A stretch of DNA of 64,000 nt from Parvivirga hydrogeniphila (lineage in GTDB: Bacteria > Actinomycetota > Coriobacteriia > Anaerosomatales > Anaerosomataceae). Under the pieces are notes generated by a model, which made no database searches, had not been told where the DNA came from, and worked only from the letters and a program-made list of their open reading frames with translations. A program made the translations under genes and the position numbers. The first letter of the stretch is position 1. Each line of letters begins with the position of its first letter. Positions 27,719 through 46,717 of the stretch are shown here, in pieces. Location of the stretch: assembly GCF_023371205.1 (NCBI RefSeq), contig NZ_JAMCCO010000002.1:249501-313500 (forward strand), in the 5' to 3' direction.

Positions 27719-28444
27719 TCACACCTCCGCGACGTGCACCGCCACGATGCCGCCAGTGAGGTTGCGCCACCGCACGCGGGAGAAGCCCGCCGCCTCGAGC
27801 TCGCGCGCGAGCTCCTGCTGGCTCGGGAACCGGCGGATCGACGCGTTCAGGTACTCGAACGACGCCCTATCGCCGGCGATGAGCGCACCGAGCGCGGGGA
27901 TGACCCGCTCCAGGTACGCGTGGTACACCGCGCGGAACGGCGCGAACGGCGGCCTGCTGAATTCGAGGATGACGTACCGCCCCCCCGAGCGGAGCACACG
28001 CCGCACCTCGCGGAAGTTCGCTTGCCGGTCGGGCAGGTTCCGCACGCCGAAGGCGATCGTCACCACGTCGAACGACGCGTCAGAAAACGGAAGCGCCTGT
28101 GCGTCCGCATGCGCGAATGAGATGCGCGTAGGGCCGTGGTAGCGCGCCGCTTTCTGCTTGCCGACCCTGAGCATCTCTTCCACGAAGTCGGTGGACAGGA
28201 CAGACGCTGGGCGCCCGTACCGCGCGATTGCAAGCGTCAGGTCGCCCGTGCCCGCCGCGAGGTCGAGGACCTCGGTAGACGGCGTGATTCCCGCCATCCG
28301 CACCGTCGCGCGGCGCCAGAGGCGGTCAAGCCCGAAGCTCGACACGAGGTTGAAGGCGTCGTATCGCGGCGCGATCCGCGAGAAGATGCCACGGACGCGC
28401 TCGGTCGTCGGAGTCCCGCGCGAAGGGTCGAGCGCCTCGCTCAC
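27719..28444 (-). CDS. menG: Demethylmenaquinone methyltransferase
   Basis: 241 aa, UbiE/MenG family, last step of menaquinone synthesis using S-adenosylmethionine. It has the N-terminal signature FSRIAPRYDAFNLVSSFGLDRLWRR, SAM motif VLDLAAGTGDLT and the C-terminal signature FPSQQELARELEAAGF. GTG 28444 overlaps the radical SAM gene by GTGA and is behind GGGAGG. It implies a menaquinone pool, in keeping with complex I and the cytochromes. Confidence 0.95.
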   Translation of the reverse strand: MSEALDPSRGTPTTERVRGIFSRIAPRYDAFNLVSSFGLDRLWRRATVRMAGITPSTEVLDLAAGTGDLTLAIARYGRPASVLSTDFVEEMLRVGKQKAARYHGPTRISFAHADAQALPFSDASFDVVTIAFGVRNLPDRQANFREVRRVLRSGGRYVILEFSRPPFAPFRAVYHAYLERVIPALGALIAGDRASFEYLNASIRRFPSQQELARELEAAGFSRVRWRNLTGGIVAVHVAEV

Positions 28445-30216
28445 GCCACGCCTCCCTCGCGGGCGAGCCTCCGCCTGCGGATCGCCGGGAAGAGGATCTC
28501 GGCGTTGACCTTGAGCCACAGGTGCGCATTGGCGATGACGTGCGTCGGCCGAACGCTCCGAGGCCACTGCAGCTCGGACTTCACGCACACCGTGTTCTCG
28601 TTGAGCTGGTCGATCTCGCGCTTGAGCGCAGCGAGCCGCCGTTCGCGCTCCTCGCCCTCGCTCGACTCGACGATCGCATCGATCCGCCGCATCGTCTGGC
28701 GCGCTTCGCGGATGCGCATGTCGGTTGCAGCGGCCGTCGCAGCGTCCAAAATGCCGATCTCGCCTTTGATGCGGTTGAAGCCGAGCGCCGCTTCGTAGGT
28801 GCTCTCGACGAGCTCGTCGCGCGTCATGCCGTCGGGCTCGTAGTTCAAGATGTGCTTCCACGACGGTTGGAGCAGGAGCTGCCGATGCTCTTCCAGCGTC
28901 CGCCCGCGCAGGCGGTACCCGTACGCGTCGGGGTTGTCGAACACCATCGAGCCAGGGTCAAGGAACGGCGCCATCGGCGAGATGAACGCGAGCAGACGCG
29001 TATCGTTGCCCACGCTCTCATAGAGATCCCGCACGGCAGGGACGGTGTCTCGCACCGACTGCGCGGTCTGCGTCGGGATGCCGGTCATGAAGTAGAGGTC
29101 GAAGCGTGAGCAGCCGTGCTTGAACGCGTGGCGGACGGACGTGGCGACCTCCTCGAACGCGTAGTGCTTGCCGAACGCCGCGCGCACCGCATCGTCGTGG
29201 CTCTCGCACGAGACCTCCACCGACCAGTCGTTGAGGTTCTCGCCCAGAAACGCGCAGAACTCCTCAGTGGGCGGCGTGAAGAACTCGAAACCGATGGGGT
29301 TCTTGAAGTCGATGCGCCTCAGGCCCTTGATGAACGCCTCGACGTAGTCCGGTCCGGCCTGCTGGAAGTCGTTCAGCACGAACACCGGCCCCGGGATGTG
29401 CTTCGCCACGTGCTTGATGTCAGCCACCAGGCGCTCGGGGTCGCGGAACGCCGGGCGCGTGCGCCCGAAGTGCTGCGCGAAGGCGTACGCCGATCCGCCG
29501 CACGTGGGGCACTGCTTCGTGCACCCGCGGCAGACGAGCGAGGCGGTCACCGGATAGCCGAGCCATCCCCGGAACGGCAGCGAGCTCGTGAAGTCGCGGT
29601 CGCGGATGACGGAGCGCATGTTGAAGCTGTAGTCGAGCTTGACGTGGTCGAAGGTGTCCGGAGCCCACGAGAGCTCGTTGATGACCACGTCCCCGGCGGC
29701 GGTCTTGTAGGTGAGGTTCGGGATGCCTGCGACGCTCCCGCCCCGTCTGAGCGCGTACACGAGCTGCGTGAAGGGCTCTTCGGTCGAATCGCCGCGGAGC
29801 ACGTAGTCGACGCAGTCGTAACGGATGAGCTCCTCGTGGAAGTAGGAGGCGGACAGACCTCCCATCACCACGGGAATGTCGGGGTGCAGCCGCTTGCAGA
29901 TCCGCGCGACCTCGATGGCGCCGTGCGCGTGCGGCAGCCAGTGCAGGTCGATGCCGAACGCCACGGGCCGCATGGACCGTATCGCCGCCTCGACGTCAAA
30001 GCGGGGCCTGGCGAGCATGTGCATTGCGAGGTTCACGATGCGCACGGAAAGCCCGCGCCGCTCCATGTACTCGGCGAGCGTCGTGAAGCCGATGGGGTAC
30101 ATCTCGAAGATCGGCGTGGAAGGCACAAGGTCCGAGACCGGTCCGAACATGATGGACCGCTCGCGGAAGTCGTACACGCTCGGGGCGTGGAGAAGCACAA
30201 GATCGGTGTGAGGCAC
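28441..30216 (-). CDS. B12-binding-domain radical SAM protein
   Basis: 591 aa. The N-terminal half resembles a cobalamin-binding domain (FTTLAEYMERRGLSVRIVNLAMHML, IPVVMGGLSASYFHEELIR). A radical SAM core follows, with cluster motif CTKQCPTC inside CRGCTKQCPTCGG. The layout fits the family known as TIGR04190 (Ta0216-like). The reaction is unknown; an unusual methylation or ring closure is possible. GTG 30216 lies behind AGAAGGAG. It overlaps menG, so it may modify quinones or a co-regulated product (inference). A -10-like TATCAT sits at 30269-30274 (minus). Confidence 0.85.
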   Translation of the reverse strand: MPHTDLVLLHAPSVYDFRERSIMFGPVSDLVPSTPIFEMYPIGFTTLAEYMERRGLSVRIVNLAMHMLARPRFDVEAAIRSMRPVAFGIDLHWLPHAHGAIEVARICKRLHPDIPVVMGGLSASYFHEELIRYDCVDYVLRGDSTEEPFTQLVYALRRGGSVAGIPNLTYKTAAGDVVINELSWAPDTFDHVKLDYSFNMRSVIRDRDFTSSLPFRGWLGYPVTASLVCRGCTKQCPTCGGSAYAFAQHFGRTRPAFRDPERLVADIKHVAKHIPGPVFVLNDFQQAGPDYVEAFIKGLRRIDFKNPIGFEFFTPPTEEFCAFLGENLNDWSVEVSCESHDDAVRAAFGKHYAFEEVATSVRHAFKHGCSRFDLYFMTGIPTQTAQSVRDTVPAVRDLYESVGNDTRLLAFISPMAPFLDPGSMVFDNPDAYGYRLRGRTLEEHRQLLLQPSWKHILNYEPDGMTRDELVESTYEAALGFNRIKGEIGILDAATAAATDMRIREARQTMRRIDAIVESSEGEERERRLAALKREIDQLNENTVCVKSELQWPRSVRPTHVIANAHLWLKVNAEILFPAIRRRRLAREGGVA

Positions 30217-30396: not shown

Positions 30397-31956
30397 TTAC
30401 GGCAGACCGCGGAGCAGGAGCTCCGAATCCATGGCCGACGAACGATCGGTGGTGCCGTTCCAGTAGGTTGCGTCGCCGTGGCAGTCGATGCACACGCTGT
30501 CGAGGTTCTCGGCAGCCGCATTAAGCAGCGCACCGTCGTCGCTCTGGACAGCTGGGATGCCCGACGAAGCGTTGGCCGACGTGTCGTCGTATGACAAGAC
30601 GACCGTACCGATCGCCGAAGCGCCGCGTACCACACCGACCGCGATAGGGGTGCCATCGAAGTCAACGCCCCACAGCTCGTCCTTCAGCATGTTGTAGCCA
30701 AGCGTGCGGTGCGGCCAGCTGAAGCCGCCGTCGAGGCACTTGCTGCCGACTGTGGTGGCAGAGGTCTTGATGAACGACTGCGCGGTGTAGTTCGTCTTCC
30801 CTGACACCGGCGCGGTGAAGGTCGCGGTGTAGGCGCCACCGGAGGTGCCGTGGCACTGGTTGCACGAGCTCGCACCGGTGTGGCAGTTACGGCAGTGAGG
30901 ACCATAGTTGTTTGAATCACCCGGATTCAAGATCATCTGGCGCGCTCAATGCCTCGGCTGCGCATCGTGCGAGTAGGCGACCGTGTAGGTGCCGGTCGTG
31001 GTGTCGCTTGCGTTCGGCTGCCAGACCTCGGCGGCCTGGGTGGACATACCGGCGGTGCCGTCGTGGCAGTCGGTGCAGAACTCAGACACGGACAGGAAGC
31101 CGTCAGTCGCCCACGGGAAGTCGGCATCCGGGTCGTTGTCCTGGACCCCGCCATACGCGGCATCCGCTGGACCGAGCGGCTCGTCCCAGTCGATCGCGAT
31201 CTTGTTCTTGCCGTCAGTCGCGTACGGATCCGAGCCGTATGTGGTCGTGTCGCTGCCGTCGGAGTGCGGGTCCTTCAGCAGCAGGAAACGGCCCGTCGGC
31301 CAGATCGGCTTCGCGGCAACAGCACCGCTGCTGAAGATCTTGAAGTTGCCCTGGTTCGGGTCGATGCCCCACTCGCCTGCGGTGTCGAGTGTGCCGTCTG
31401 AGCTGTTGCCGGAGCCAGGAATGACGCTCGCTCCCGTGCCCATCAGACGACCCGGGTTCGCAAAGGTCGTCAGCACGCGCGCGGAGTTGCCGTGCGGCGT
31501 GTGGCAGTCGAAGCAGCTGAAGCCCTGTGTGTCCGAGTACGCCGGCTTGATGTCGGCCGGGGCATTGCCCTTGTAGCCCAGCGTGTGGCCAGTGCCGTAA
31601 CCCATGGTCTCGGTCGGGATGGCCGACGCCTGCGACGGGTCATACGAGCCGCTGCGGTAGTCGTTGTCCATCATGATGTTGATGGTCGAACCGCCGCCGC
31701 CGCCGTGGCAGTAGTCGCACGCAGCCTCCCGGCTGTTCGCGCGCAGCAGCATGAAGCTACCAGAAGCGTAGTGCGTCGAGTGGCAGTCCTGGCACTTGTT
31801 CGTGGTAGTCGTGTAGCCGCCGTGCGGGCCGGAGAAGTAGCCGTTGGCGCGGGTGTACTGGATGGGGTTGTTGTACCCCTCGGCGAAGGCCGGCGCCGCC
31901 ACCAGAAGCACGAGCACGGCCGCGGCCGCAAGGACGATCATCGTGCGTCGTGACAT
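30397..31956 (-). CDS. Seven-haem c-type cytochrome with one in-frame TGA (possible selenoprotein or nonsense mutation)
   Basis: Read through the TGA, this is one 519-codon frame. ATG 31956 follows AAGGAGGG. A signal peptide ends near AFA-EGY (residue 25). Four CXXCH motifs precede the TGA (CQDCH, CDYCH, CFDCH, CTDCH) and three follow (CRNCH, CNQCH, CIDCH). The TGA is codon 337 (30946-30948). The next ATG (30936) is in the same frame, three codons later, has no ribosome-binding site and would make a fragment with no signal peptide, useless for haem attachment. So either TGA is recoded, or the gene carries a single nonsense change, or there is a base error. A hairpin 15 nt after the TGA (30912-30930) fits bacterial SECIS geometry. 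Confidence 0.8.
30912..30930 (-). promoter_or_regulatory. SECIS-like hairpin downstream of the in-frame TGA
   Basis: On the minus strand, 15 nt after the TGA, a perfect 7-bp stem (TTGAATC/GATTCAA) closes a 5-nt loop CGGGT. The loop starts 23 nt after the stop codon and has G at its second position plus a GT. This is within the known limits for bacterial SECIS elements (short stem, small loop with G near its start, roughly 16-37 nt from UGA). A 7-bp inverted repeat can also arise by chance. Confidence 0.4.
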
Positions 31957-32083
31957 TGCACCCTCCTTGTGTGTTCGCTTGCTTACGAAGCTCGTCATAT
32001 CTCGTTCCACCTCCTCTCTCCCGACGAGCGCGAAACCGCGTCTGCGGTGATCGCCTTGTTCACAGTCGAACCTGAAGTTCGTT

Positions 32084-32201: not shown

Positions 32202-33641
32202 TTATTCCTCGATGCGGTATCGCTCTGCGAGCTCAGCAAGCGTCAGCGTGCGCTTGACGCCTTTCTCCTGCAGAGCGGCCGCCTGCTCGTCGTCGGCGAC
32301 CAACACGACGCGACGGCCGACGCTCGACAGAGAGCGGACGCGCGGCTTGGAGGCGTCCGCGAGCACCGCATGCGTGTCCTCGTCGGTGGAATCCGTGTCC
32401 AGACGCACGAGGAAGTCGCCCATCCTCACCTCGCGCTCCGTCACTTCGGCGAACCGTTCGTACACCTGAGGCAGCACGCGGACACGTTTGAGAGCGCCCG
32501 CGACGAGCCGAAGCTCCTCGCGCTCGGCAGCAGCCTCCAGCGCCTCGCCGGTCGCATATGCGCGCCGCCGCAGCAGGAGCCACAGGAGCGGCAGCAGGAG
32601 CAGCGGAACGAGCAGCCACTTCAGCCACGGCGAGCGCGCGATGACCGTGTTCTCCTCCGGCAGAAGGAGCCGTACGATCTGCACACGGTCGTTGTAGGTG
32701 TCAGCGATCGCGAAGGTGCGGTCCCCGAGGTACGCGATCTGCGTCGGGAGCCGGAACAGGCCGTCCGCTTGGCCTTCGAGGTCCTTGAACTGGTAGATGG
32801 TCTTGCCGGTCTCAGTGTCGATGACCGTGATGGTGTGGCGGAACCCGTCCAGCACGAATGCTCGACCGCGCTCGTCGACGGCCACGCCCGACGGCACGCC
32901 GAACAGCGTCTCGGGGTCGTCTTGGAACCGCGGTGGCGTCCCGAGCACCCACAGCGCGGTCGCGGTCGCCTCGCCTTCCAGCCGCAGCCGCTGGACGCGG
33001 CAGTTATTGGAGTCGGCGACCACGAGCGAGCCGTCCGGCAGCGCCGCTGCAGCACGCGGGTAGTCGACCATGCCTTTCTCGTAGCCACGGCTGCCGACCT
33101 CTTTGATGAGCTGGCCCTCGCTGTCGAACAGCGCTATCGGCCCGAAGCTCAGCACCGCCACGCCGTCTTTCGTGAGGACGGGTGCCAGCGCGTTCAGGAC
33201 GGGCACCTCCCAGAGGTACCGCCCCTGCGTGTCGTAGGCGATGAGGCGCAGGCGCATGCGGTCGGTCACGTACACGTGCCCGGACAGCCGGTCCACCGCC
33301 ACACCGAGCGGTGCCATCAGCTGGCCGGCCTGGAGCCCCCGCTCGCCCCACGAACGCACGTAATCGCCGTTGCGGTCGAATTCGAAGACTTTCGCGCCGT
33401 CTTTGAGCGTCACGAAGAAGTTCCCCTGCTCGTCAGCGCCGACCCCCACCGGGCGGTAGAGGTTCTCACCGTTGGCCATGTAGATGCTCTTCACGGGGAC
33501 GAGCCCCGTCTGAGCAGGAGGCTTGGCCTTCTCGGCCGAGGCCGCGTCCGGCCTGCCTCCTGCGAGGTAGACGTAAAGCCCTCCCAGCCCGAGCAGCACG
33601 AGCAGGAGGACGACGATGACGATGACTAGGCGTCGGTTCAT
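32202..33641 (-). CDS. Membrane-anchored NHL-repeat beta-propeller protein (copy 1)
   Basis: 479 aa. It has an N-terminal membrane helix (residues 5-27), a six-bladed NHL-type propeller (about 50-325; recurrent patterns such as RPVGVGADEQGNFFVT, APLGVAVDRLSGHVYVTD, VPSGVAVDERGRAFVLD), then a second membrane helix (PWLKWLLVPLLLLPLLWLLLRR) and a C-terminal domain of about 120 residues on the cytoplasmic side. NHL propellers bind proteins or glycans. It follows the TPR gene by 24 bp; the same TPR-NHL pair recurs at 48617-50460. Inferred role: scaffold or sensor for the exported cytochromes. Confidence 0.88.
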   Translation of the reverse strand: MNRRLVIVIVVLLLVLLGLGGLYVYLAGGRPDAASAEKAKPPAQTGLVPVKSIYMANGENLYRPVGVGADEQGNFFVTLKDGAKVFEFDRNGDYVRSWGERGLQAGQLMAPLGVAVDRLSGHVYVTDRMRLRLIAYDTQGRYLWEVPVLNALAPVLTKDGVAVLSFGPIALFDSEGQLIKEVGSRGYEKGMVDYPRAAAALPDGSLVVADSNNCRVQRLRLEGEATATALWVLGTPPRFQDDPETLFGVPSGVAVDERGRAFVLDGFRHTITVIDTETGKTIYQFKDLEGQADGLFRLPTQIAYLGDRTFAIADTYNDRVQIVRLLLPEENTVIARSPWLKWLLVPLLLLPLLWLLLRRRAYATGEALEAAAEREELRLVAGALKRVRVLPQVYERFAEVTEREVRMGDFLVRLDTDSTDEDTHAVLADASKPRVRSLSSVGRRVVLVADDEQAAALQEKGVKRTLTLAELAERYRIEE

Positions 33642-33665: not shown

Positions 33666-34373
33666 TTACTGACCGGGCGTGCCGGTGGCATGCGGGCTCG
33701 AGGTGGTCTCCTCGGGCTTCACACCGAGACGCTTCAGTCCTGCGAGCGCGCGCTCGTCGCCGGGCAAGAACTTGAGGGCCGCCTGGAACTGGGTCGCTGC
33801 CTCATCTCTCTTGCCCGCCTTCTCGAGCACCTCGGCATACACGAGGCGGACGTCTGCGTTGACCGGCATGATCTCGACCGCTTTCTCGAGCGCTTTGAGC
33901 GCCGCATCGAGGTCGCCGAGATCGCGCTCCACCTGGCCGAGGAGGAAGTACGCTTCTCCGTCGTTGGTGCCGTCTCCGCCCTTGAGTTCCGTCTCAAGTG
34001 CGGTCTTCGCTTTCTTGATCTGGCCGTCGCGCACGTAGAGCGCCGCAAGCCGCACGCTCCACCCTTCGGGATCCTTCGCGACCTTCACGGCCCGCTCGGC
34101 ATGCGCGATCGCGTCCGCCTTCTTACCGAGGTCGTACTCCACTTCCGCAAGCGTCATGAGGATCGCTGGATCGTCCGGGTTCTTCTGCAGACCATCGACG
34201 AGGAGCTGGTAGTCGCGCTCTGCATCGGACTTCGGCCCCGCGTCGAACACGCCTTCGCTCGCAAGCAGCGCGACAATGACGCCGACGAGCAGGACAGCCA
34301 CGCCCGTGAGGATCCACGGCATCGCCTGCTGCGGCGACATGACCCGCTTGACTTTCGGTTTCCGGGCAGCCAC
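33666..34373 (-). CDS. Membrane-anchored TPR protein (copy 1)
   Basis: 235 aa: a short basic N-terminus, one membrane helix (PWILTGVAVLLVGVIVALLAS), then four to five TPR units (for example DDPAILMTLAEVEYDLGKKADAIAHAERAV and GEAYFLLGQVERDLGDLDAALKALEKAV), mostly outside. It is similar in build to the protein at 49714-50460. Pairing with the NHL gene downstream suggests an assembly scaffold. GTG start at 34373. Confidence 0.85.
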   Translation of the reverse strand: MAARKPKVKRVMSPQQAMPWILTGVAVLLVGVIVALLASEGVFDAGPKSDAERDYQLLVDGLQKNPDDPAILMTLAEVEYDLGKKADAIAHAERAVKVAKDPEGWSVRLAALYVRDGQIKKAKTALETELKGGDGTNDGEAYFLLGQVERDLGDLDAALKALEKAVEIMPVNADVRLVYAEVLEKAGKRDEAATQFQAALKFLPGDERALAGLKRLGVKPEETTSSPHATGTPGQ

Positions 34374-34515: not shown

Positions 34516-35616
34516 TCAGAACACCGGCTTGTCGTGGCAGAACCCGCAGAACGATGCATCATGGCAGCGGCAGCCGCCCGGGCCGTTCGATCGCGCCATC
34601 GGACCGTGCAGCGGGAACCACTCGCTGTACGTGCCGTGCACGTTCACGTCCTGGTGGCATCCGCACGCGATCCTCGGTGACGCCTGCTCGTGGCACTTGG
34701 CGCACAGCGACGGCGAGCGGTATGAGAGCCCTGCGTGCTCCGACATGAATCCCGCGGGGTGCGGCAGCTCGAGCCCGTGGCAGGCCACACAGCGCCGAGC
34801 GCTTTGCTGCGTGTGGCAGCCGGTGCACCGGGTCGTCAGCCGAACGACGGAGGTCCCCGTGGTCTCGGCCGTATCGAGCGGACCGCCCGACGCATGGCAG
34901 GTGCCACAGCCGGCGGGTGCCGCTTGCCCGTCGTGGCACGAGAGACACGCGTTCATCGCAGACTGCTGGATGCCGCCCGGGCTCTTCGGCGTCTCATGCC
35001 CCGCGTGCGGATGGCAGGAAACGCACGTGTAGCCGGCATCGAGAACATCAGAGTGGCGCATGCGCACGCGCTTCCCGACCACACCGCTGCGTATGTTCCG
35101 GTGGCACGACAGGCATCGCTGCGTCGACACCTGCACGGGCGCTACCGTGGACTCTCCGCTTCCGCGAAGGTACCGCACACGCGCGAGCGAGGACGCCGCC
35201 GCCCCCAGAGGCCCCGGCTGCGCGTGGCACCCGTAACACGAGACGCTGGCGTGAGCCCCCTGCTTCCACGCGGCCACCTCCGGCGCGATGGCGTGGCAGG
35301 TCGTGCAGCGCTTCGAGACGACGGTGAGCGTAGGGGCCGCCGAGATCAGCACCACCACGCCGGCTGCCACCAGAGCGACGGCGGCGAGCCGCCTCGCCGC
35401 GGCCCCCTTGCGCCGCACCCGCAGCCGCTGCGCCTTGGCCGCATCGGCGACCACGAACCCGGTGAGCATCACGAACACGATCGCAAGCGCCACGAGAGCC
35501 GCAAGAATCATCGTCTCGCGCGGATACGCGCGCGGGTCCTGCAGAACGCGTGGGAACAGCCGAACCGCAGCTGACCATCCGTTCACGATGCGATCGATGA
35601 GCGCGTCGGGCTGCAT
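34516..35616 (-). CDS. Membrane-anchored decahaem c-type cytochrome with two extra CXCH motifs
   Basis: 366 aa. It has two N-terminal membrane helices (about residues 36-58 and 76-97), then ten CXXCH motifs (CTTCH, CYGCH, CLSCH, CVSCH, CLSCH, CGTCH, CTGCH, CVACH, CAKCH, CGFCH). Near the C-terminus are two short motifs CGCH and CRCH with one residue between the cysteines. Likely role: quinol-linked or transmembrane electron transfer to other cytochromes (inference). The start ATG 35616 is 3 bp after the 12-haem gene. Confidence 0.92.
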   Translation of the reverse strand: MQPDALIDRIVNGWSAAVRLFPRVLQDPRAYPRETMILAALVALAIVFVMLTGFVVADAAKAQRLRVRRKGAAARRLAAVALVAAGVVVLISAAPTLTVVSKRCTTCHAIAPEVAAWKQGAHASVSCYGCHAQPGPLGAAASSLARVRYLRGSGESTVAPVQVSTQRCLSCHRNIRSGVVGKRVRMRHSDVLDAGYTCVSCHPHAGHETPKSPGGIQQSAMNACLSCHDGQAAPAGCGTCHASGGPLDTAETTGTSVVRLTTRCTGCHTQQSARRCVACHGLELPHPAGFMSEHAGLSYRSPSLCAKCHEQASPRIACGCHQDVNVHGTYSEWFPLHGPMARSNGPGGCRCHDASFCGFCHDKPVF

Positions 35617-35619
35617 TGC

Positions 35620-36606
35620 TCACCGCGTCCTTCCGTGGGGCGAGATTCCCGGGCGCTTCAGGTGCGCACCAGCAACGTGGCACGCCTCGCAGTCCGTGAG
35701 GAGATGGCACTTCATGCAGGTCTCGTAGCCGTGCCGATCGACGTCTTCATAGTGGGTCTTGATGAACCCCGTGGGATGCGGCATCGGGACGCCGCCGTGG
35801 CACGCTTCGCACCACGATGCGGCATGGCACTTGTAGCACTTCGAGCGCTGCGGTTCGCCAAGACCGCTGCCGTGCGTGGCCTTCCACCCGTCGGGGTGCG
35901 GGACCTGCACGCCGTGGCACTTGGCGCACTTGTCGCGCGTGTGGCACGCCGCACAGGTGTCGAGGTCGCCGAGCCCGTGCGTCTTCTCCCATCCCGGACC
36001 GTGCGTCACACGCCACGCCGTCCGTGCGGCGCGCACCGCGGTGTCCGAGTCATCGACGTGGCAGAGGTCGCACGACGCCACGTTCGTGGGGCTCGCTTTG
36101 TGACAGGTCAAACAGTCGTCCATCTCCGGGTGCTTGTACGCGCGGTCGTCCACGCGATGCCCCGTGCCGCCGTGGCAGTACGAACACCGCGTGGCCGCGA
36201 AATCCGAGTGTCTGACGGCGATGCCGCGCGACCGCACCACCGAGCCCAGCGCGTCCGCGTGGCACGACACGCACCCGCGTTCGTCGATGGTCGCGGGCGA
36301 GGGCCGGTGGAAGGTCGCAGCTCCGCCGAGCATCCTTGCCATCCGCGCGCCATCGGCGAGAGCAGCCAAAGGCCCGGCGCTCGAATGGCACGCTCCGCAC
36401 CGCTGCGATGCGTGCTGCGTCTGCAGATGGCTGGCCGAGTACGGTCTCATCGCATGGCAAACGCCGCAGCGCGTGCTCTGCTCGAAGTACACGCCACCGA
36501 GCGCCGCAAGAACGAAGGCGACCGCAGCGGCGAGGCCCACGATGATGAGCGCTTTCGCTCGTGCTTCGCGCCGCAAAGCACGTGTTCTGAGCGGGACGGG
36601 CGTCAT
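35620..36606 (-). CDS. Membrane-anchored dodecahaem c-type cytochrome
   Basis: 328 aa. A basic cytoplasmic N-terminus, one membrane helix (KALIIVGLAAAVAFVLAALGGVYF) and twelve CXXCH motifs: CGVCH, CGACH, CVSCH, CSYCH, CLTCH, CDLCH, CAACH, CAKCH, CYKCH, CEACH, CMKCH and CEACH. The single anchor just before the first haem recalls NapC/NirT-type quinol dehydrogenases, although it is much larger. ATG 36606 overlaps the ligase gene by 4 bp. It shares several H-rich spacers (VPHPDGWKATHG, MPHPTGFIKTHY) with its neighbour at 34516. Confidence 0.93.
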   Translation of the reverse strand: MTPVPLRTRALRREARAKALIIVGLAAAVAFVLAALGGVYFEQSTRCGVCHAMRPYSASHLQTQHASQRCGACHSSAGPLAALADGARMARMLGGAATFHRPSPATIDERGCVSCHADALGSVVRSRGIAVRHSDFAATRCSYCHGGTGHRVDDRAYKHPEMDDCLTCHKASPTNVASCDLCHVDDSDTAVRAARTAWRVTHGPGWEKTHGLGDLDTCAACHTRDKCAKCHGVQVPHPDGWKATHGSGLGEPQRSKCYKCHAASWCEACHGGVPMPHPTGFIKTHYEDVDRHGYETCMKCHLLTDCEACHVAGAHLKRPGISPHGRTR

Positions 36607-38342
36607 CGCGCCGCCGCCCCGACGACTGAAGCCGCCTGCGGATCGTCGGGTATGACCCTCAGGATCTCCGAAGCGAGACGCTGTGCGTCCTCGGTGCGCC
36701 CGGCCTTCAGGCACACGTCGATAGCCTCACGACGAACGGCGATGCCCATCGGGTAGAGAGACGCAGCCGCCACGTGCGCATCCACAGCCTCCGGCGATCC
36801 GTCGATCCGCGCGAGGCGCGCCCGCGCCAACGCAAGATCGTACGATGCTGGCTCGAGTTCGAGGCCCTTCTCGATGATAGCACGCGACGCCGCCCGCTCA
36901 TACGCCCCAAGGTATGCGGCCGCGTCCGAGCAGGCGACGCGGTAGACGTCCGTGAGCGGGTCTTTGCGCACGGCACGCTCTGCGAGGGAAAGCGCGGTCC
37001 GCATGTCACCACGCTCGAACGCTTCCACGCTGTGCTGGTACGCCACGTCCGCTTGCAGGTGCCACGCACACAGCACGACTGCAGCGAGGCCGAGCGCGAC
37101 ACCGGCCCAGCGCGCTCCGTTCACGGTGCGTCTGCCCGGCGCCTGCCATGTCGCTCCCGCGAAACCACCCCCTGCGAGCATCCCGGCAAGAAGCCAGCCG
37201 AGCCCGTCGACCTCGATGGCGTGGACGCTGAACGCGGCCTGTCCGAGGTAGGCCGCAAGCCCTGACAGGAGCACCAGCGCGTGCGGCGAGCGCTTCTTCG
37301 CCCCAGCAGCGCCAGCAAACGCAGCCGTCGCGAACACGGCGATCCAGGCCAGCGCCGCCGGGACTCCCGCCTCGGCAGCCAGGTGCAGCGGCCGGCTGTG
37401 CGCCTGGTCCGCCCGCACGTCGAGACCCTCAACGCGCGCGTGCTCGACCGGCTCGTACTGCGGGAACGCATACAGGAACCGCCCTGGCCCAGCACCGAGA
37501 AGCGGCGCGTCTGCCACGAGCGCGACAGACCCGCGCCAGATCTCGAGGCGCGCTGACGCGGATCCCGCGCTGAGGCTCGCCGGCGATACCTTTGCGGCAG
37601 GCTCCCCTCCTGCGACGACTGCGCCCAACACGACTGCAGCGACAAGGACGCCAGCGAAAAGCACCTCGCGCGGCTTGCGTCGCACGGCGACCGCTGCGAC
37701 GAGCGCCGCCGCAAGACCTGCCCACGCGCCCCGAGACCCGGCGAATCCCAGCCCGGCGGCCCCGAGGACCGCAGCGCCCCACAAGAACGTCCGCCATGCG
37801 CCGCGCTCTGCGATGCCGCCAGCGAACGCGAGCGCAACGCACACCGCAAGCCACCCGCCAGCGATCGCTTGGTTGCCGAACGAGCCGCCCGGCTGTGCGT
37901 GCGCTGCAGTCTGCGCAGCCAGCGCGAACGTCTGCGCGACGACGCCCACTGCCGCAAACCGAGCCACGTCGCGGGCCCTGGCCGCACCCATGCGCCAGCC
38001 AGCGATCCCGGCGACGGCCGCGACCGCCCACGCGACGAGACCGTCGAACCGCCCCTCGACGCCCCACACAGCAGACGGTAAGCCGTTGACTCCCGCAGAG
38101 ACCCCGAGAAGCGCGAGGAAGACCCCCACGGCGACGACCCAACGCCGGTCTCCGCCTGCCGAGGGAGCAGCGAACAGCAGCGCGACCGCCGACGCCGCCA
38201 CAACGAGGGTTCGGATCGGCTGATACGGGTCGCCGGCTGCTCTGAGCGACACGAACGCTGCAACCAGCACGAGGGCGAGCGCGACACGCTCCGCCACGAC
38301 GCGCACACCTGTCGACGTCTGATCACGCACAGAGCCGGACAC
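36603..38342 (-). CDS. O-antigen-ligase-like (Wzy_C) membrane protein with C-terminal TPRs (copy 1)
   Basis: 579 aa. About 11-12 membrane helices with the Wzy_C signature region (GSRGAWAGL, LGAGPGRFLYAFPQYEP, HSRPLHLAAEAGVPAALAW), followed by a TPR tail (about 440-579). The family transfers undecaprenyl-linked glycans onto lipid A, other glycans or proteins (PglL/PilO relatives). It is translationally coupled to the 12-haem cytochrome, and a related gene sits in the second cytochrome cluster (51101). Protein O-glycosylation of cytochromes is therefore an attractive inference, not shown by sequence. Confidence 0.87.
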   Translation of the reverse strand: MSGSVRDQTSTGVRVVAERVALALVLVAAFVSLRAAGDPYQPIRTLVVAASAVALLFAAPSAGGDRRWVVAVGVFLALLGVSAGVNGLPSAVWGVEGRFDGLVAWAVAAVAGIAGWRMGAARARDVARFAAVGVVAQTFALAAQTAAHAQPGGSFGNQAIAGGWLAVCVALAFAGGIAERGAWRTFLWGAAVLGAAGLGFAGSRGAWAGLAAALVAAVAVRRKPREVLFAGVLVAAVVLGAVVAGGEPAAKVSPASLSAGSASARLEIWRGSVALVADAPLLGAGPGRFLYAFPQYEPVEHARVEGLDVRADQAHSRPLHLAAEAGVPAALAWIAVFATAAFAGAAGAKKRSPHALVLLSGLAAYLGQAAFSVHAIEVDGLGWLLAGMLAGGGFAGATWQAPGRRTVNGARWAGVALGLAAVVLCAWHLQADVAYQHSVEAFERGDMRTALSLAERAVRKDPLTDVYRVACSDAAAYLGAYERAASRAIIEKGLELEPASYDLALARARLARIDGSPEAVDAHVAAASLYPMGIAVRREAIDVCLKAGRTEDAQRLASEILRVIPDDPQAASVVGAAAR

Positions 38343-39071: not shown

Positions 39072-39731
39072 CTAGTCCGTGGGGCGCCCCGCTCCGACCG
39101 GCACCTGGCACTTGCACGCCAGCGACTTGATGTCGCACGGCATCCGCACCTGGTGGATCTGCATCCCTTCAGGCTTGCGGACGTGTATGACGGGCGTGAT
39201 CAGCAGCACGCCTGTGACTCCTGCGTTCGCGAGCAGGTCGAGCGTCACCTGCACCCATCCTGGAGAGCACGCGACCAGCGCCACGCTCACACCGAGATCG
39301 GCATCGAGCCTCGCGAGGTCGGTAAGGTGCTGCACCGTCAGGTCGCCGATCCTCGTCCCGGCGTCTTCGGGAATCTCCGAGAACAGCGCCACCGGCTTGA
39401 CGCCGTAGCGCTCGGACGGGAAGACGACTTGCAAGGACTCCAGCATGCGCGCCGTGCCGACGAGGACGATCGGATACTCCTCGGACAGGCCGAGATACCG
39501 CGTGATCTCGCGGTAGAGGTCTTCCGGCCGGTACCCGGCGCCGGGCCGACCGATCTCGCCGACGAACGAGATGTCTCGGCGCACGCTCTCCTCTTTGATG
39601 CCGAGCTCTCGTGCGAGCTCGGACGAGGTGATGCGCTCCGGAGCGCCCACGCGCAAGAGCTCGCCGAGGTAGCAGTGGTAGAGCGAGAGCCGGTAGAGCG
39701 TCGCGTCAGGCGCGTTGCGGCCGTCTGGCAT
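39072..39731 (-). CDS. Rex-family transcriptional regulator paralogue lacking the NAD-binding motif
   Basis: 219 aa. The N-terminal winged helix aligns with Rex (ITSSELARELGIKEESVRRDISFVGEIGRPGAGY, as in [32 protein letters not shown] of the Rex at 50457). The Rossmann region has VLVGTARMLESL where Rex has IVGYGKLGSAL, so the GxGxxG motif is gone. The C-terminus carries Cys199, Cys206 and Cys208 (PCDIKSLACKCQVP), which true Rex lacks. It may sense a ligand other than NAD(H), perhaps through an Fe-S or thiol switch (inference). It lies immediately downstream of ccsA. Confidence 0.8.
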   Translation of the reverse strand: MPDGRNAPDATLYRLSLYHCYLGELLRVGAPERITSSELARELGIKEESVRRDISFVGEIGRPGAGYRPEDLYREITRYLGLSEEYPIVLVGTARMLESLQVVFPSERYGVKPVALFSEIPEDAGTRIGDLTVQHLTDLARLDADLGVSVALVACSPGWVQVTLDLLANAGVTGVLLITPVIHVRKPEGMQIHQVRMPCDIKSLACKCQVPVGAGRPTD

Positions 39732-39901: not shown

Positions 39902-40729
39902 TCAGTAGCCGATGAGGTAGGCGCCGTGTATGGACTTGTAGACGAGCGCCACGCCGACGAGCGCGAACAGCATGACCGGGAGCGCCCCGATCGCCGCCCA
40001 TGCGAACCGTCGCCCTCGCCATCCGAGCGTGAGACGCGCGTGCAGGACCAGGGCATACACGAGCCACGAGATGAGCGACCACGTCTCGATCGGGTCCCAT
40101 CCCCAGTACCGGCCCCACGCCTCGTTCGCCCAGATGGCTCCGGCCACGATCATGATCCCGAGGAAAAGGAACCCGGCGGCCACGAACTTGTATGCGAGGT
40201 CGTCGAGCGCTTCGGGCGCGAGCTTGCCGAGAAGCGGGTCGCCTTCGGTCCGACGCTTGTCCCGCACCAAGAAGAGAACAGCAAGGCAAGACGCGGTGAT
40301 GAACGATCCGTACGACAGCTTCGCGAACGCGACGTGGATCGCGAGCCACCAGCTCGCGAGGGTCCCGGTGATCGCAAGGTCGCTCTTCGGCGCGAGCATC
40401 GCCCCTCCGAGCGCGAGGAACGCGATCGGCATCACGGCCGCAGCCAGCGGCTGAAGCGCGCGCTTGCGCGCGACGAGAAGCAGGAACGCCGCCACGCCGA
40501 CGAATGCGTACGACGAGACGACTTCGTAGAAGCCGAGGAACGGCCCGTGCCCGACACGCACCCACCGGTAGCCGATCCCTGCGGCGTGCACGAGAAGACC
40601 CGCGAGCGCGATGAAGGTCGCGGCTCGCTCGAAGGCCGGCTTGCGGAATACGAAGCCGACGATGGCCGAGACCGCCGAGACTGCATACGCCGTCACCGCT
40701 ACCCACATGATGATGATCTCAGTCGTCAT
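39902..40729 (-). CDS. ccsA: Cytochrome c biogenesis protein CcsA/CcsB (System II)
   Basis: 275 aa, eight membrane helices. The haem-handling WWD motif is present as WGRYWGWDPIETWSLISW, and conserved His residues occur in LLVHAAGIG, AIHVAFAKL and KSIHGAYLIGY. With ResB it forms the haem lyase that attaches haem to CXXCH motifs outside the membrane. ATG 40729 overlaps resB by 11 bp and follows AGGAGG. This provides the maturation machinery for the five cytochromes in the window. Confidence 0.95.
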   Translation of the reverse strand: MTTEIIIMWVAVTAYAVSAVSAIVGFVFRKPAFERAATFIALAGLLVHAAGIGYRWVRVGHGPFLGFYEVVSSYAFVGVAAFLLLVARKRALQPLAAAVMPIAFLALGGAMLAPKSDLAITGTLASWWLAIHVAFAKLSYGSFITASCLAVLFLVRDKRRTEGDPLLGKLAPEALDDLAYKFVAAGFLFLGIMIVAGAIWANEAWGRYWGWDPIETWSLISWLVYALVLHARLTLGWRGRRFAWAAIGALPVMLFALVGVALVYKSIHGAYLIGY

Positions 40730-42101
40730 CACGAGACCTCCTCTCGCACGACTCGCACGAAGCGCTGAAGGCGCGCTCGACCGACGCTCGGACCCGCTGC
40801 TGGAAGCTGGGGTCCCGCCGGGCGTGACGCGCCCCGATGCGCACGGTCGCGCCTTCAGGCCCTTTCTGAACCAGCGCAGCCGCTTCCCGGTACGGCGCGA
40901 ACAGCGCCACCGCCAGCGCCAACACAGCCAGAACGAACACCGCGTACATCGGATAGACGCTCCAGTCGTCCGCCACCGAGAGCCGTGCGTAGTATCCCAC
41001 GCGTGCGACCGCGATGGCGAATCCAGGAACCGGCTCGAACCGCTCGCCAGGCCGCACCGAACCGCTCCGGCGGCCGGCTGGACCGGTCGCGGTCCACTCG
41101 ATGCGCGGCTCGCGCGGAAGCGCACGCACGCACCTGCCACCCACCGTCTCCAGCGGTATGGAGAGGTGGAGAGCAGTGACGCCTCCCGGACCGGCCGCTT
41201 CGAGAGTGGATGTGGCGACGCACCGTGCCTCGTCGAAGTCGAGAAGCGCGTCTGTCTCAGTGCCATCAGGGGAGATAAGCTTCACGGCAAGCCCGATGTC
41301 GTTCGAGTGGACGATGAGCGACTTGTATCGGAGCGGATGGTTCGGGTAGACGAAGCCGCTCTCGAGCCGCTCGGGGCCGTCGTACAGCTCCACGTACGGC
41401 GTCGGCCCCCGATCGATGCCGTCCACCACGTGCGTGAGCTCGAGCGAGGGCACCGCGACCGTCAGCATCGTGAAGCCGCGGTGCAGGGGGCCTTCGCTCA
41501 CGATGCCGTACGACGCGCGCGTGTCGAGACGCGCGCCGCCCACGGGCACGCCCATGAGCCCCTCGGCCCTCGTGAGCTGACCGGCAGCGATCACGACGAT
41601 GAGCACCGCGAGCAGCCAGTGGAATGCCGGGCTTCCCCACACGCCGAGGCGCGACGATGTCGCGAGCACCACCTCGCTCGAAGCAGTACGCACGCGAAGC
41701 CCGGCCTCGCGCAAGGCCGCGCTTGCCGTCTGCACGGCCTCGGCGGGATCGGCGGCCTCGACCACGAAGTCGCAGCGCGCGCCGAGCCGCCGTGCGTGCG
41801 CTTCCGGCCGGTCGGCCCGCCGCCACAACCGCACGGCGGCCGCGGTTCGCTCCAGCGAACATGCGACCGTGGACACGAAGAGCGCGGCCGCAAGACCGAT
41901 GAACACCGGCGAGCTGAACGCGTGGTCGAGGCCGAGCGCCCGGACGAGCCAGTCTCCGGCGCCCTGCAGAGTGCGCCCTCCTGTCGAGCCCTTCTGAGGG
42001 ACGAGGGTCGCCAGGCCCGACCACGCAGCGAGCGCAGCCAGCAGCACCGCCGCAAGGCGACGGGAGCGCACGAGGTCATAGACGCGAGACACGATACGCA
42101 T
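40719..42101 (-). CDS. resB: Cytochrome c biogenesis protein ResB (System II)
   Basis: 460 aa. It has membrane helices near residues 15-35, 65-85 and 165-185 and one near 375-395, with a large external domain between the last two, as in ResB/Ccs1. Conserved N-terminal pattern: RRLAAVLLAALAAWSGLATLVPQ. The C-terminus ends with an unusual CESCERRSRDDD, a CXXC pair on the cytoplasmic side that could be redox active. Partner of CcsA, translationally coupled. Confidence 0.93.
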   Translation of the reverse strand: MRIVSRVYDLVRSRRLAAVLLAALAAWSGLATLVPQKGSTGGRTLQGAGDWLVRALGLDHAFSSPVFIGLAAALFVSTVACSLERTAAAVRLWRRADRPEAHARRLGARCDFVVEAADPAEAVQTASAALREAGLRVRTASSEVVLATSSRLGVWGSPAFHWLLAVLIVVIAAGQLTRAEGLMGVPVGGARLDTRASYGIVSEGPLHRGFTMLTVAVPSLELTHVVDGIDRGPTPYVELYDGPERLESGFVYPNHPLRYKSLIVHSNDIGLAVKLISPDGTETDALLDFDEARCVATSTLEAAGPGGVTALHLSIPLETVGGRCVRALPREPRIEWTATGPAGRRSGSVRPGERFEPVPGFAIAVARVGYYARLSVADDWSVYPMYAVFVLAVLALAVALFAPYREAAALVQKGPEGATVRIGARHARRDPSFQQRVRASVERAFSASCESCERRSRDDD

Positions 42102-42760: not shown

Positions 42761-45700
42761 CTACTGGAACACCCTGAGCTCGGCGATCCCGTAGCCGTTG
42801 TTGCGGCCGGTTCCGGTCCTCCGGCACTCGACCTTCAGGTAGCGCGCGTTCCTGGCGCTGAAGGTGACCGTCGAGGTCCCCTTGGGCGCCGAGGTGGTGG
42901 AGTAGACCTGCGTCCAGTTGCGATTGTCGGTGGACACGTAGATGCGGAACTCCTTGGCCCAGTAATCTCCGTACCACGCGACCTCTGCCTTGCTCACGCT
43001 GTACTGCGCACCGAGGTCCACGGTCAGCCACTCGGTGTCAGACGCTCCGCCGTCTTTCTTCGACCACCAGTAGGTGCTCTCGCTGCCGTCACCGGCCTTG
43101 GCCGGCGCGTACGAGCTGCTCTCGTACCTGGAGGCGGTGAAGGTCTTGTTCAGAGCGAGATTCGTGCCGCCAGAGGCCGACGGCGTCAACGCCACGTTCA
43201 CGGTGGTGGTGATGCCGTTCGTGACGGTCACCGTGGACGACCACGTCTGATAGCCTGCCGCGCTGACCGTCATGGTGTACGCACCACCAGCGATCCCAGA
43301 GATCGCGTACGAGCCATCAGAGGCCGTGGTCGCGGTCTTGCCAGCCACGCTCACGGTCGCGCCAGCGACAGGCGCTCCGCTCGAAGCGTTCGTGACCGTC
43401 CCGGTCAAGCCGCCGGTCGTCGGCGCAGTCGGATCCAAGACGAGCGGCCACTTCGGAGAGACCGAGCTCCCGTGCTCGCCGCAGGAGGTCGAGCAATCGC
43501 CCTCGCTCCACGAGCCGGGCACATAGCTCTTGAGCTTCAGGCCGGTCAGGCCAGTGCTCGCATACGGGGCTCCGTCCGTGGTGTACGCCAACATGCGTGG
43601 CCGCTTCCACCCGTGCGGCACTTGCGCGTGGCAGAGGATGCACTTCCCGCGGCTCGAGCCCTGGTGATCGCCCTTGGAATGCACCCCGTTGCTCCAGGAG
43701 CCCGAGGTTCCATTCAGGTCGTGGCACTTCGCACAGATCACCGTCGTCGAGCTCATGCCGTTGGACGTGTTGCTGAGGTATACGGTCTTCCAGCTCGTCG
43801 GGTACGACGGATCGATGTTGACCTTCATCGCGGACCCGTGCGGACCAGTCGCCCCGCTGTACGTGTGGCACGCATCGCAGCCCATGACCGAATCCGTCGC
43901 CCAGCCGCTCTTGAGGAAGGACGATGCGGCCGGCAGCGTCCACGTGTACGTCGTGCCGTTCACGTTGAACGACGACTGCATGCCGGGCAGATCGCTCGAG
44001 ACTCGGTGGCCTGAGGACGTCTTGGACGTGAACTCCCATGCCTGTCGCGCGTTGTGCGGCGAGTCCGGATGGCAGGTCAGACACCGGCGATCGCCTGCAG
44101 CGATGGCGGCCTGCACGGTGGTGTCCGTCGAGCCGTGGCAGGTCTGGCAGGTGTACCCGAGCGCAGAGTGCTCGTCATCGAGGTACATGAAGTGGCAGCC
44201 CTTGCACCCGCTCGGATTGGAGCCGGAGGCGTTATGGGCCTCGTGGTGGTTGGGCCCGACACCAGCGTGGCAGACGGTGCAGTCGGTCGTGGTGGCCGGC
44301 TGATCCGGGCCTTTGTGGCACACAGAGCAGCCTCCGCCTGGCAGACCGGCGTGGATGTTATCGACGTTCGATATGTCGTGACAGCCGGTCCCCGCGCACG
44401 CAGTGTTCGTCGCCTGGTGCTTGGTCTGCCTCTCCGCATGCTTCACGGGATGGCAAGCGCCGCACGTCTTGTCCCAGGGAGCGGTGAACGCGTCGACTTT
44501 CTGCTCGTGGCACTGCACGCACGTCACACCGACTGTCGGCTTGAAGTGCTCGGCCTTCATGTCTTTGTAGTGGCACTGGCCGCAGCCCGACTCCGCTGAC
44601 GCGTCGTGCGCGGCAGGTGGATAGTGGCTCGGATCCACCGGACTGAGCGCGCCGTGGCAGTTGGTGCACTTCGTCGATGACGGCAGCGCGACCTGCTCAT
44701 TGTGGCAGTAGTCGCATGACGCGTCCTGGGTCGCGCCGTGGATGCTTCGCACGTCAGCAGTCTCGTGGCAGTCGACGCACTCCTGGCTGTCCGGAGCCGT
44801 GTGGATGGTCGCTATGTCGCCGTGCACCTCGTGGCAGGTCGAGCAATCGGCGCTCGCACGGCTCCAGTCGATGCGGCCAGGATCGGCGTTCTGGTGGCAC
44901 AGAGCGCACGTCGTCGCGTACTGCGGGTAGCGCGAGAGGTACGGCTCGTGCACCTCGGGCAGCGTGTTGGCTGCGTGGCAACGCGAGCCGATACAGCTCG
45001 AGGGCATCGCGTTGAAGGTGTGCGCGCCAGGCAAAGCGCGGTGGTAGTCGGTGCCAGCAGTCGTATGGCAGCTTGCGCACGCGGCCGTCTTCGCGCTGAT
45101 GTCTGGCACCCGCGTCGGATTCGCGTGACAGACCGCGCATCCGCCGAGGGCGGCGTTCTTGTGCACGACCGTCACGTCGAGCGGCTGCCCCGCGACACCG
45201 TGGCACGACGAGCACCCATCGATGCTCGCGTCGTCGCGAGCGGTGTGCTTGCTCGTGGCGCCGGCGTGGTACTCGGCGTGGCACGCGGTGCACCGCGTGT
45301 CGTTCGCCACCTCGATCGCGAACTGCACCTGCTGCCCGCGCTCGCCTTCGTAGTAGCCATGGCAGACATCGCACCCGCTGAGCGGCTTCCCGCTTGGCGT
45401 CGTCGCAGTGACGCCATCGTGCACGTCCACGAGCGACGCTGCGTGGCACCCGCTGCACCCCTGGTCGCCAGATGGCGTGTAGGCGCTCCGATGAGCGCCT
45501 GATATCGGGGCGTGCACGGGGTGGCACGCCTCGCAGTTGGTCTTGCCGGTGGCGATCGCGTCAAGCACCTCGAGCTTCGAGGACTTGTGGCACGAATCGC
45601 AGTCGAGCGGCGTCCCGTCCGACGTGTAGCGCGGCAACCTCGTCACCACGCCGTTCGAGGTCCCCATGTGTTCGTCGAGGAGGTTCGACGTGTGGCACAT

Positions 45701-46717
45701 GATGCAGTCGTTCGTGGGCGCCGTCGACGCCGAGCCCGTGTAGTACCCGTAATGCGGACCTGCGGCGTCGACGAGCGGCGGCTGCGCCCAGTGGATCGAG
45801 CGGTGCGCATCGCCGGCGGTCGCGTCGTGACACGCCCCGCACGCCGTGTCGCCCGCCGCGATCGCCGCAGCGTACCGCGGGTCGGAGGTGTTGCCGTGGC
45901 AGAGCGTGCAGCCCTCGCCCGGCCTGCGGGCCTCGTGCTCGGCCACCAGATCGCGCGAGTCGTGGCACCCTGACGCGATGCAGCCGTCCATGGACCACGT
46001 GCTCAGGTGCGTGTCAGGCGTGTAGTGCTGGTCGAGCGGCTCATGGCAGTTCGTGCAGGCAGGAAGGTCGGCGCCCGACTCGATCGCGGTCTTCGGGTGA
46101 CACGCAGACGCGTAGCACGTCACGGGGCGCGTTCCGTAGTTGAACGTGCTCTCGATAAAGACCGCGCCTGCGGCTCCCGTGCACACCTGGCTCGCGACCG
46201 GCGCGTACGAAGCGACCGTAGACTGAGCGACTACGTGGCCGCCGTGCGTCGCAGGCGCCTCGTGACACGCGTCGCACGACGCGGCGAGGTGGCAGTTCTT
46301 GCACCATTGGCTGGTGAACACGCCGCTCGTGACCCAGTCAGCATCACCGTGGATCCGGTGAAGCTCTTCTGGCGACGTCATGAGGGACGCTGACGACGCG
46401 AATCTCCCAGCGACGGGATCGTAGTACTGCCCGAGCCACGCGGTGTTCGCGTCTGTCCGTCCGTGACACTGGCTGCACCACGGAGAGTCGACCGCTTTCT
46501 CGTGTATCCCAGCGTCAGGACTCATCGCGTGACAGGCGTTGCACTTGGCGAACGAGACCGGCGCGCGGAAGTCGACCGCTTTCGAAGAACTGCCTCCGGA
46601 CACGGAATGGCACCCGAGACACACCGAGTTCTCTGCTGGAGCGGCCGCGTACGCGACACCGGTCACGGCGGCGCACACGACGAGCACCGCTACGGCGAAC
46701 AGCACTGTCCTTCTCAT
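42761..46717 (-). CDS. Giant 37-haem exported c-type cytochrome with C-terminal CarboxypepD_reg-like and F5/8 type C domains
   Basis: 1318 aa. A signal peptide (about 1-25) is followed by 33 CXXCH and 4 CX4CH motifs (CYASACH, CIASGCH, CIGSRCH, CAGTGCH) spread over residues 33-1030. No membrane anchor is visible. Residues about 1102-1182 look like a carboxypeptidase-regulatory-like beta sandwich (GLTGTVTNASSGAPVAGATV, AGGAYTMTVSAAGYQ). Residues about 1183-1318 look like an F5/8 type C (discoidin) domain (NLALNKTFTAS, EWLTVDLGAQYSVSKAEV), which binds carbohydrate. Likely a cell-surface or extracellular electron conduit anchored to polysaccharide. The CX4CH form is known from cytochromes c3. ATG 46717 follows GAGAGGGGAG. 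Confidence 0.93.
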   Translation of the reverse strand: MRRTVLFAVAVLVVCAAVTGVAYAAAPAENSVCLGCHSVSGGSSSKAVDFRAPVSFAKCNACHAMSPDAGIHEKAVDSPWCSQCHGRTDANTAWLGQYYDPVAGRFASSASLMTSPEELHRIHGDADWVTSGVFTSQWCKNCHLAASCDACHEAPATHGGHVVAQSTVASYAPVASQVCTGAAGAVFIESTFNYGTRPVTCYASACHPKTAIESGADLPACTNCHEPLDQHYTPDTHLSTWSMDGCIASGCHDSRDLVAEHEARRPGEGCTLCHGNTSDPRYAAAIAAGDTACGACHDATAGDAHRSIHWAQPPLVDAAGPHYGYYTGSASTAPTNDCIMCHTSNLLDEHMGTSNGVVTRLPRYTSDGTPLDCDSCHKSSKLEVLDAIATGKTNCEACHPVHAPISGAHRSAYTPSGDQGCSGCHAASLVDVHDGVTATTPSGKPLSGCDVCHGYYEGERGQQVQFAIEVANDTRCTACHAEYHAGATSKHTARDDASIDGCSSCHGVAGQPLDVTVVHKNAALGGCAVCHANPTRVPDISAKTAACASCHTTAGTDYHRALPGAHTFNAMPSSCIGSRCHAANTLPEVHEPYLSRYPQYATTCALCHQNADPGRIDWSRASADCSTCHEVHGDIATIHTAPDSQECVDCHETADVRSIHGATQDASCDYCHNEQVALPSSTKCTNCHGALSPVDPSHYPPAAHDASAESGCGQCHYKDMKAEHFKPTVGVTCVQCHEQKVDAFTAPWDKTCGACHPVKHAERQTKHQATNTACAGTGCHDISNVDNIHAGLPGGGCSVCHKGPDQPATTTDCTVCHAGVGPNHHEAHNASGSNPSGCKGCHFMYLDDEHSALGYTCQTCHGSTDTTVQAAIAAGDRRCLTCHPDSPHNARQAWEFTSKTSSGHRVSSDLPGMQSSFNVNGTTYTWTLPAASSFLKSGWATDSVMGCDACHTYSGATGPHGSAMKVNIDPSYPTSWKTVYLSNTSNGMSSTTVICAKCHDLNGTSGSWSNGVHSKGDHQGSSRGKCILCHAQVPHGWKRPRMLAYTTDGAPYASTGLTGLKLKSYVPGSWSEGDCSTSCGEHGSSVSPKWPLVLDPTAPTTGGLTGTVTNASSGAPVAGATVSVAGKTATTASDGSYAISGIAGGAYTMTVSAAGYQTWSSTVTVTNGITTTVNVALTPSASGGTNLALNKTFTASRYESSSYAPAKAGDGSESTYWWSKKDGGASDTEWLTVDLGAQYSVSKAEVAWYGDYWAKEFRIYVSTDNRNWTQVYSTTSAPKGTSTVTFSARNARYLKVECRRTGTGRNNGYGIAELRVFQ

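Follow-up and report, generated by a model that had tools for sequence, protein, structure and literature searches.

Predicted selenocysteine in a secreted seven-haem cytochrome family of Actinomycetota

Introduction

Three of the 119 families in a 2026 census of prokaryotic selenoproteins are of haem type, namely ExtKL (NF040886), GSU2204 (NF041027) and the octahaem family (TIGR04315) (PMC13188914). ExtKL from Geobacter, encoded in the extHIJKLMNOPQS cluster, is more abundant during growth on Fe(III) (PMC5877670). It resembles the protein described here in being a multihaem c-type cytochrome with one predicted selenocysteine (Sec) and in lying within an electron-transfer gene cluster (PMC5877670). 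The octahaem tetrathionate reductase family likewise consists of multihaem cytochromes, with Sec members annotated in GenBank, and GSU2204 stands for CXXCH-containing outer-membrane proteins listed as selenoproteins (PMC13188914).

The present locus lies in a 64,000-nt stretch of the Parvivirga hydrogeniphila genome, hereafter the window, and differs from each of these systems. ExtKL has five haems instead of seven, is found in Geobacteraceae and has unlike neighbours; GSU2204 is a β-barrel protein. Profiles NF040886, NF041027 and TIGR04315 gave no match to the present family at E ≤ 1. The families of Haft and Tolstoy 2025 were compared through the table of PMC13188914, and other selenoprotein surveys and literature searches, covering open-licence papers, name no such cytochrome. 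The preliminary description of this DNA had regarded a role for Sec in a multihaem cytochrome as new. As to the kind of protein this does not stand, since ExtKL precedes it (PMC5877670, PMC13188914), but this particular family is not listed there. The seven-haem family appears to be undescribed, as do its lineage and the invariant pair of Sec and Cys.

P. hydrogeniphila strain Es71-Z0120 is an obligate Fe(III) reducer from the subsurface, with a draft genome of 1,840,996 bp in 9 contigs; where its description mentions selenium, this is in connection with growth tests only (PMC9686372). The Rex-like, CcsB-like and two NapC/NrfH-like genes of the window fit the cluster described for this strain (PMC9686372).

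A cytochrome frame interrupted by TGA

From 31956 to 30397 on the minus strand, the frame comprises 336 codons, a TGA, 182 sense codons and a TAA (Table 1). This agrees with the preliminary description, which had located the TGA at codon 337 and three further CXXCH motifs behind it. The ATG at 30936 opens an ORF of 179 aa, and what had been said of it also holds: it has no ribosome-binding site and its product would lack a signal peptide. With seven CXXCH motifs and an export signal, the full-length product is a multihaem c-type cytochrome, in which residue 337 is situated between haem motifs 4 and 5. Pfam models PF09699 (Paired_CXXCH_1) and PF14522 (Cytochrome_C7) score over cut-off at the first haem pair; they are generic haem-motif models, are silent on Sec, and even their best stretch covers <10% of the protein. 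A profile search among solved structures returned no relative of the cytochrome, and AlphaFold2 gave pLDDT values of 34.2 for the mature protein and 38.0 for the C-terminal 234 residues.

Table 1. Features of the cytochrome gene and its surroundings (positions in the window)
Feature	Position	Strand	Basis
Terminator-like stem-loop, 13 bp, directly after the full-frame TAA	30323..30352	-	Sequence
Gene for a predicted selenoprotein, a secreted c-type cytochrome with seven haems; 519 aa, Sec at 337	30397..31956	-	Frame open across TGA; full-length homologues 53-70% identical
Haem motif 7, CIDCH (C489IDCH)	30478..30492	-	Sequence, after TGA
Cys407, only other non-haem Cys; invariant candidate partner of Sec337	30736..30738	-	Alignment of 41 full-length members
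Haem motif 6, CNQCH (C365NQCH)	30850..30864	-	Sequence, after TGA
Haem motif 5, CRNCH (C355RNCH)	30880..30894	-	Sequence, after TGA
SECIS-like hairpin, 7 bp, TTGAATC[CGGGT]GATTCAA	30912..30930	-	Synonymous-recoding test; compensatory changes in relatives
TGA codon 337, very probably read as Sec	30946..30948	-	Homologues: TGA, TGC or TGT only
Haem motif 4, CTDCH	31063..31077	-	Sequence, before TGA
Haem motif 3, CFDCH	31501..31515	-	Sequence, before TGA
Haem motif 2, CDYCH	31705..31719	-	Sequence, before TGA
Haem motif 1, CQDCH	31780..31794	-	Sequence, before TGA
Putative Sec-type signal peptide MSRRTMIVLAAAAVLVLLVAAPAFA	31882..31956	-	Sequence; inferred by eye
Ribosome-binding site AAGGAGGG before ATG 31956	31961..31968	-	Sequence
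NHL-repeat protein, conserved upstream neighbour	32202..33641	-	
TPR protein (CcmH/CycH-like TPR), conserved neighbour	33666..34373	-	
NapC/NirT-like multihaem cytochrome, conserved neighbour	34516..35616	-	
NrfH/cytochrome c7-like multihaem cytochrome, conserved neighbour	35620..36612	-	
Rex-like redox regulator, same cluster	39072..39731	-	
CcsB-like cytochrome c assembly protein	39902..41266	-	

Codon 337 across the family

Homologues were sought in one genome per species and found at 29 loci; all loci with a named taxon belong to Actinomycetota. Class-wide and phylum-wide searches added more, and the viral contigs searched contained no homologue. The resulting family of ∼40 members, from Coriobacteriia and Aquicultor-type lineages of Actinomycetota, has exclusively TGA, TGC or TGT at codon 337, with 23, 11 and 5 occurrences, respectively, among 39 distinct sites. 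In the class-wide and phylum-wide searches nearly all close-group orthologues were scored as ‘1 TGA’. The second TGA of a ‘2 TGA’ case (L087) was considered as a second Sec codon and rejected; it sits past a break in similarity and therefore looks like a frameshift or an assembly fault.

Sec and Cys paralogues occur within one genome in the Aquicultor-type family. A tree of 41 full-length proteins requires at least 8 switches between Sec and Cys, and well-supported branches force 6 of these. In this view the Cys members are the same protein with sulphur in place of selenium. At L008:5878-10328 a Sec copy and a Cys copy of the cytochrome stand in tandem in a single genome, and L081 carries one of each.

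The preliminary description had left three options for the TGA: Sec, a recent nonsense mutation or a base error. Sequencing or assembly error has a negligible probability, because the same codon is TGA in many independently assembled genomes. A recent nonsense mutation, or a decaying gene, would fit a stop codon within an otherwise open frame, but many species from distant lineages share this TGA, and the hairpin behind it is kept (see below). In addition, dN/dS in seven orthologue pairs amounts to 0.12–0.46 downstream of the TGA versus 0.15–0.43 upstream; judged by these ratios, the region past the TGA is part of a maintained protein, under purifying selection like the upstream part. Conservation and downstream selection thus make mutational decay highly improbable. 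Trp or Arg, which had been named in advance as signs of mutation, never occur at the aligned position, where only TGA or Cys codons are found.

Selenocysteine machinery

The window had been noted to lack selA, selB, selC and selD. This holds, and all four are present on another contig of the same genome, where selD, selA, selB and the tRNA-Sec gene (selC) lie together in one stretch (contig C1). Outside the window, two further genes of this genome display an in-frame TGA at a known Sec position followed by a comparable SECIS-like hairpin, i.e. selD itself (L043:2790-3783; 9-bp stem) and a gene for a formate-dehydrogenase-like molybdoenzyme (C2; L107 minus strand, ∼1978; 8-bp stem).

In 30 related genomes selB scores over cut-off in all but three (G045, G049 and G111), and it does so in 13 of the 14 other genomes where the cytochrome is present as a TGA copy or a TGA fragment. 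G045 and G049 are nearly complete and have neither the TGA cytochrome nor selB nor tRNA-Sec. G111 (82% complete) possesses the TGA cytochrome, with selB, selA and tRNA-Sec not found, and G725 (77% complete) has a TGA copy, with sel genes not found; incompleteness, with contigs missing from the assemblies, perhaps explains both cases. Besides its normal tRNA-Sec gene on C47, the Aquicultor-type genome G443 has another tRNA-Sec-like gene (C21:40225-40313), which scores 57.4 bits and passes the Rfam cut-off.

Some lineages do reassign TGA, and codon 337 might accordingly be read as Trp or Gly throughout the genome, or be passed by plain read-through with a standard amino acid. Against this, genes in this genome end in TGA (selB does), the homologues have Cys at the site and never Trp, Gly or Arg, and the genome has both the Sec machinery and a hairpin behind the codon. 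Such decoding is very improbable. Homologue codons, sel genes and the repeated TGA all agree with the Sec option, and the UGA at codon 337 very probably directs Sec insertion, as far as sequence comparison can tell.

The hairpin downstream of the TGA

The perfect 7-bp stem with a CGGGT loop, reported 15 nt past the TGA, is borne out by the sequence. Nine in-frame TGAs of the window lie between coding-like frames. Several of the nine are plainly antisense frames or neighbouring-gene junctions, and the codon-337 site has the best stem score. No Rfam model reaches its gathering score here. The hairpin is short; folding of the whole region gives an unremarkable energy (z -0.83), and restricted folding favours another weak structure.

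Since whole-region MFE is too weak as a test for such a hairpin, a stem-at-fixed-distance test was used instead, in which the best stem with a loop start 20–30 nt past the first base of the codon was compared with 2000 synonymous recodings. For this site alone, p is ∼0.01. Over the 23 distinct TGA sites the hairpin is kept (Fisher p 8e-19, median p 0.011), whereas at 16 Cys sites it is at chance level (Fisher p 0.42, median 0.46); the sites being related, the p-value for the TGA set is nominal, and the point is the contrast with Cys sites of the same family. The hairpin persists despite differing encoded peptides (MILNPGDS, MVSGQDTDG and MPIGTDGDG). Pair counts in three distinct close sequences reveal three compensatory changes, and covariation in the Aquicultor-type TGA set exceeds that of all 500 shuffles; pair counts in the Cys set have no covariation excess over shuffles. 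Row L053 was left out of the repeated alignment (A8). In Aquicultor-type TGA copies, Asn-Pro-Glu-Asp is encoded by the identical codon string AAT CCG GAG GAT, which varies in the Cys copies.

SelB and tRNA-Sec very probably decode UGA 337 as Sec under the direction of this hairpin. Sec decoding generally competes with termination, and the frame truncated at the UGA keeps the signal peptide and four haem motifs. Two products could hence exist by design, a four-haem protein when low selenium lets the UGA act as a stop and a seven-haem protein upon read-through. The Cys paralogues yield the long form alone, however, and a designed pair of products is unlikely.

Gene neighbourhood

Two NapC/NrfH-like cytochromes, the TPR protein and the NHL-repeat protein are kept as neighbours from Coriobacteriia to Aquicultor-type genomes; in Coriobacteriia, a radical SAM protein and UbiE are further conserved neighbours. 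This conservation suggests quinol-linked export of electrons. The radical SAM neighbour downstream, at 28441-30195 on the minus strand, is a B12-binding protein of the TIGR04190 family (634 bits), conserved in this position in Coriobacteriia. Further away, 42761-46717 on the minus strand encodes a protein of 1318 aa that contains a DmsE-like decahaem stretch and resembles an S-layer glycoprotein of anammox bacteria; it is possibly an S-layer-spanning multihaem conduit.

Possible role of Sec337

Apart from the haem Cys, the protein contains just two Cys/Sec residues, Sec337 (in the motif HDxxxRHU) and Cys407, and both positions are kept in 41 of 41 full-length members. On these grounds they are proposed to form a redox-active selenenylsulfide beside the haems. 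Electrons from quinol, delivered by the neighbouring NapC-like cytochromes, would enter the haem chain one at a time and drive a two-electron selenenylsulfide/selenolate cycle, which in turn would reduce a substrate outside the membrane. Extracellular or periplasmic electron transfer in this Fe(III)-respiring organism would be the likely setting. Provided that Sec is inserted, this pairing, with its electron path and substrate, is the first choice suggested by the alignments, with about an even chance of being correct.

The second choice takes Sec337 as inserted, but as the distal axial ligand of one haem, or beside it, like Cys in His/Cys-ligated haems. Seven CXXCH motifs stand against six conserved non-motif His residues (45, 62, 124, 155, 330 and 416), so that one haem is left over, and the location of Sec337 between motifs 4 and 5 is compatible with such a function. 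Conserved Met96 or Met423 could also serve as the ligand, and the invariance of Cys407 is left unexplained; ligation by Sec337 is therefore rather doubtful, and the selenenylsulfide with Cys407 is preferred.

A broader reading covers both roles. The family would consist of secreted selenoproteins with seven haems whose Sec works directly with haem, as selenolate ligand or as haem-reduced selenenylsulfide, and which form the catalytic head of an extracellular respiration in subsurface Actinomycetota. This is put forward tentatively, as a possibility with somewhat less than an even chance.

Significance

Standard gene calling would take codon 336 as the last of this protein and separate the remainder from it, so that in many subsurface genomes a conserved respiratory protein may be hidden behind the entries for a shortened cytochrome and a fragment. 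With Sec at this position, multihaem electron transfer in Actinomycetota would be linked to the supply of selenium; the organisms concerned include a type strain in culture that reduces Fe(III). The repeated natural exchange of Sec and Cys, sometimes between paralogues of the same genome, would offer a system to test why Sec is used over Cys beside haem.
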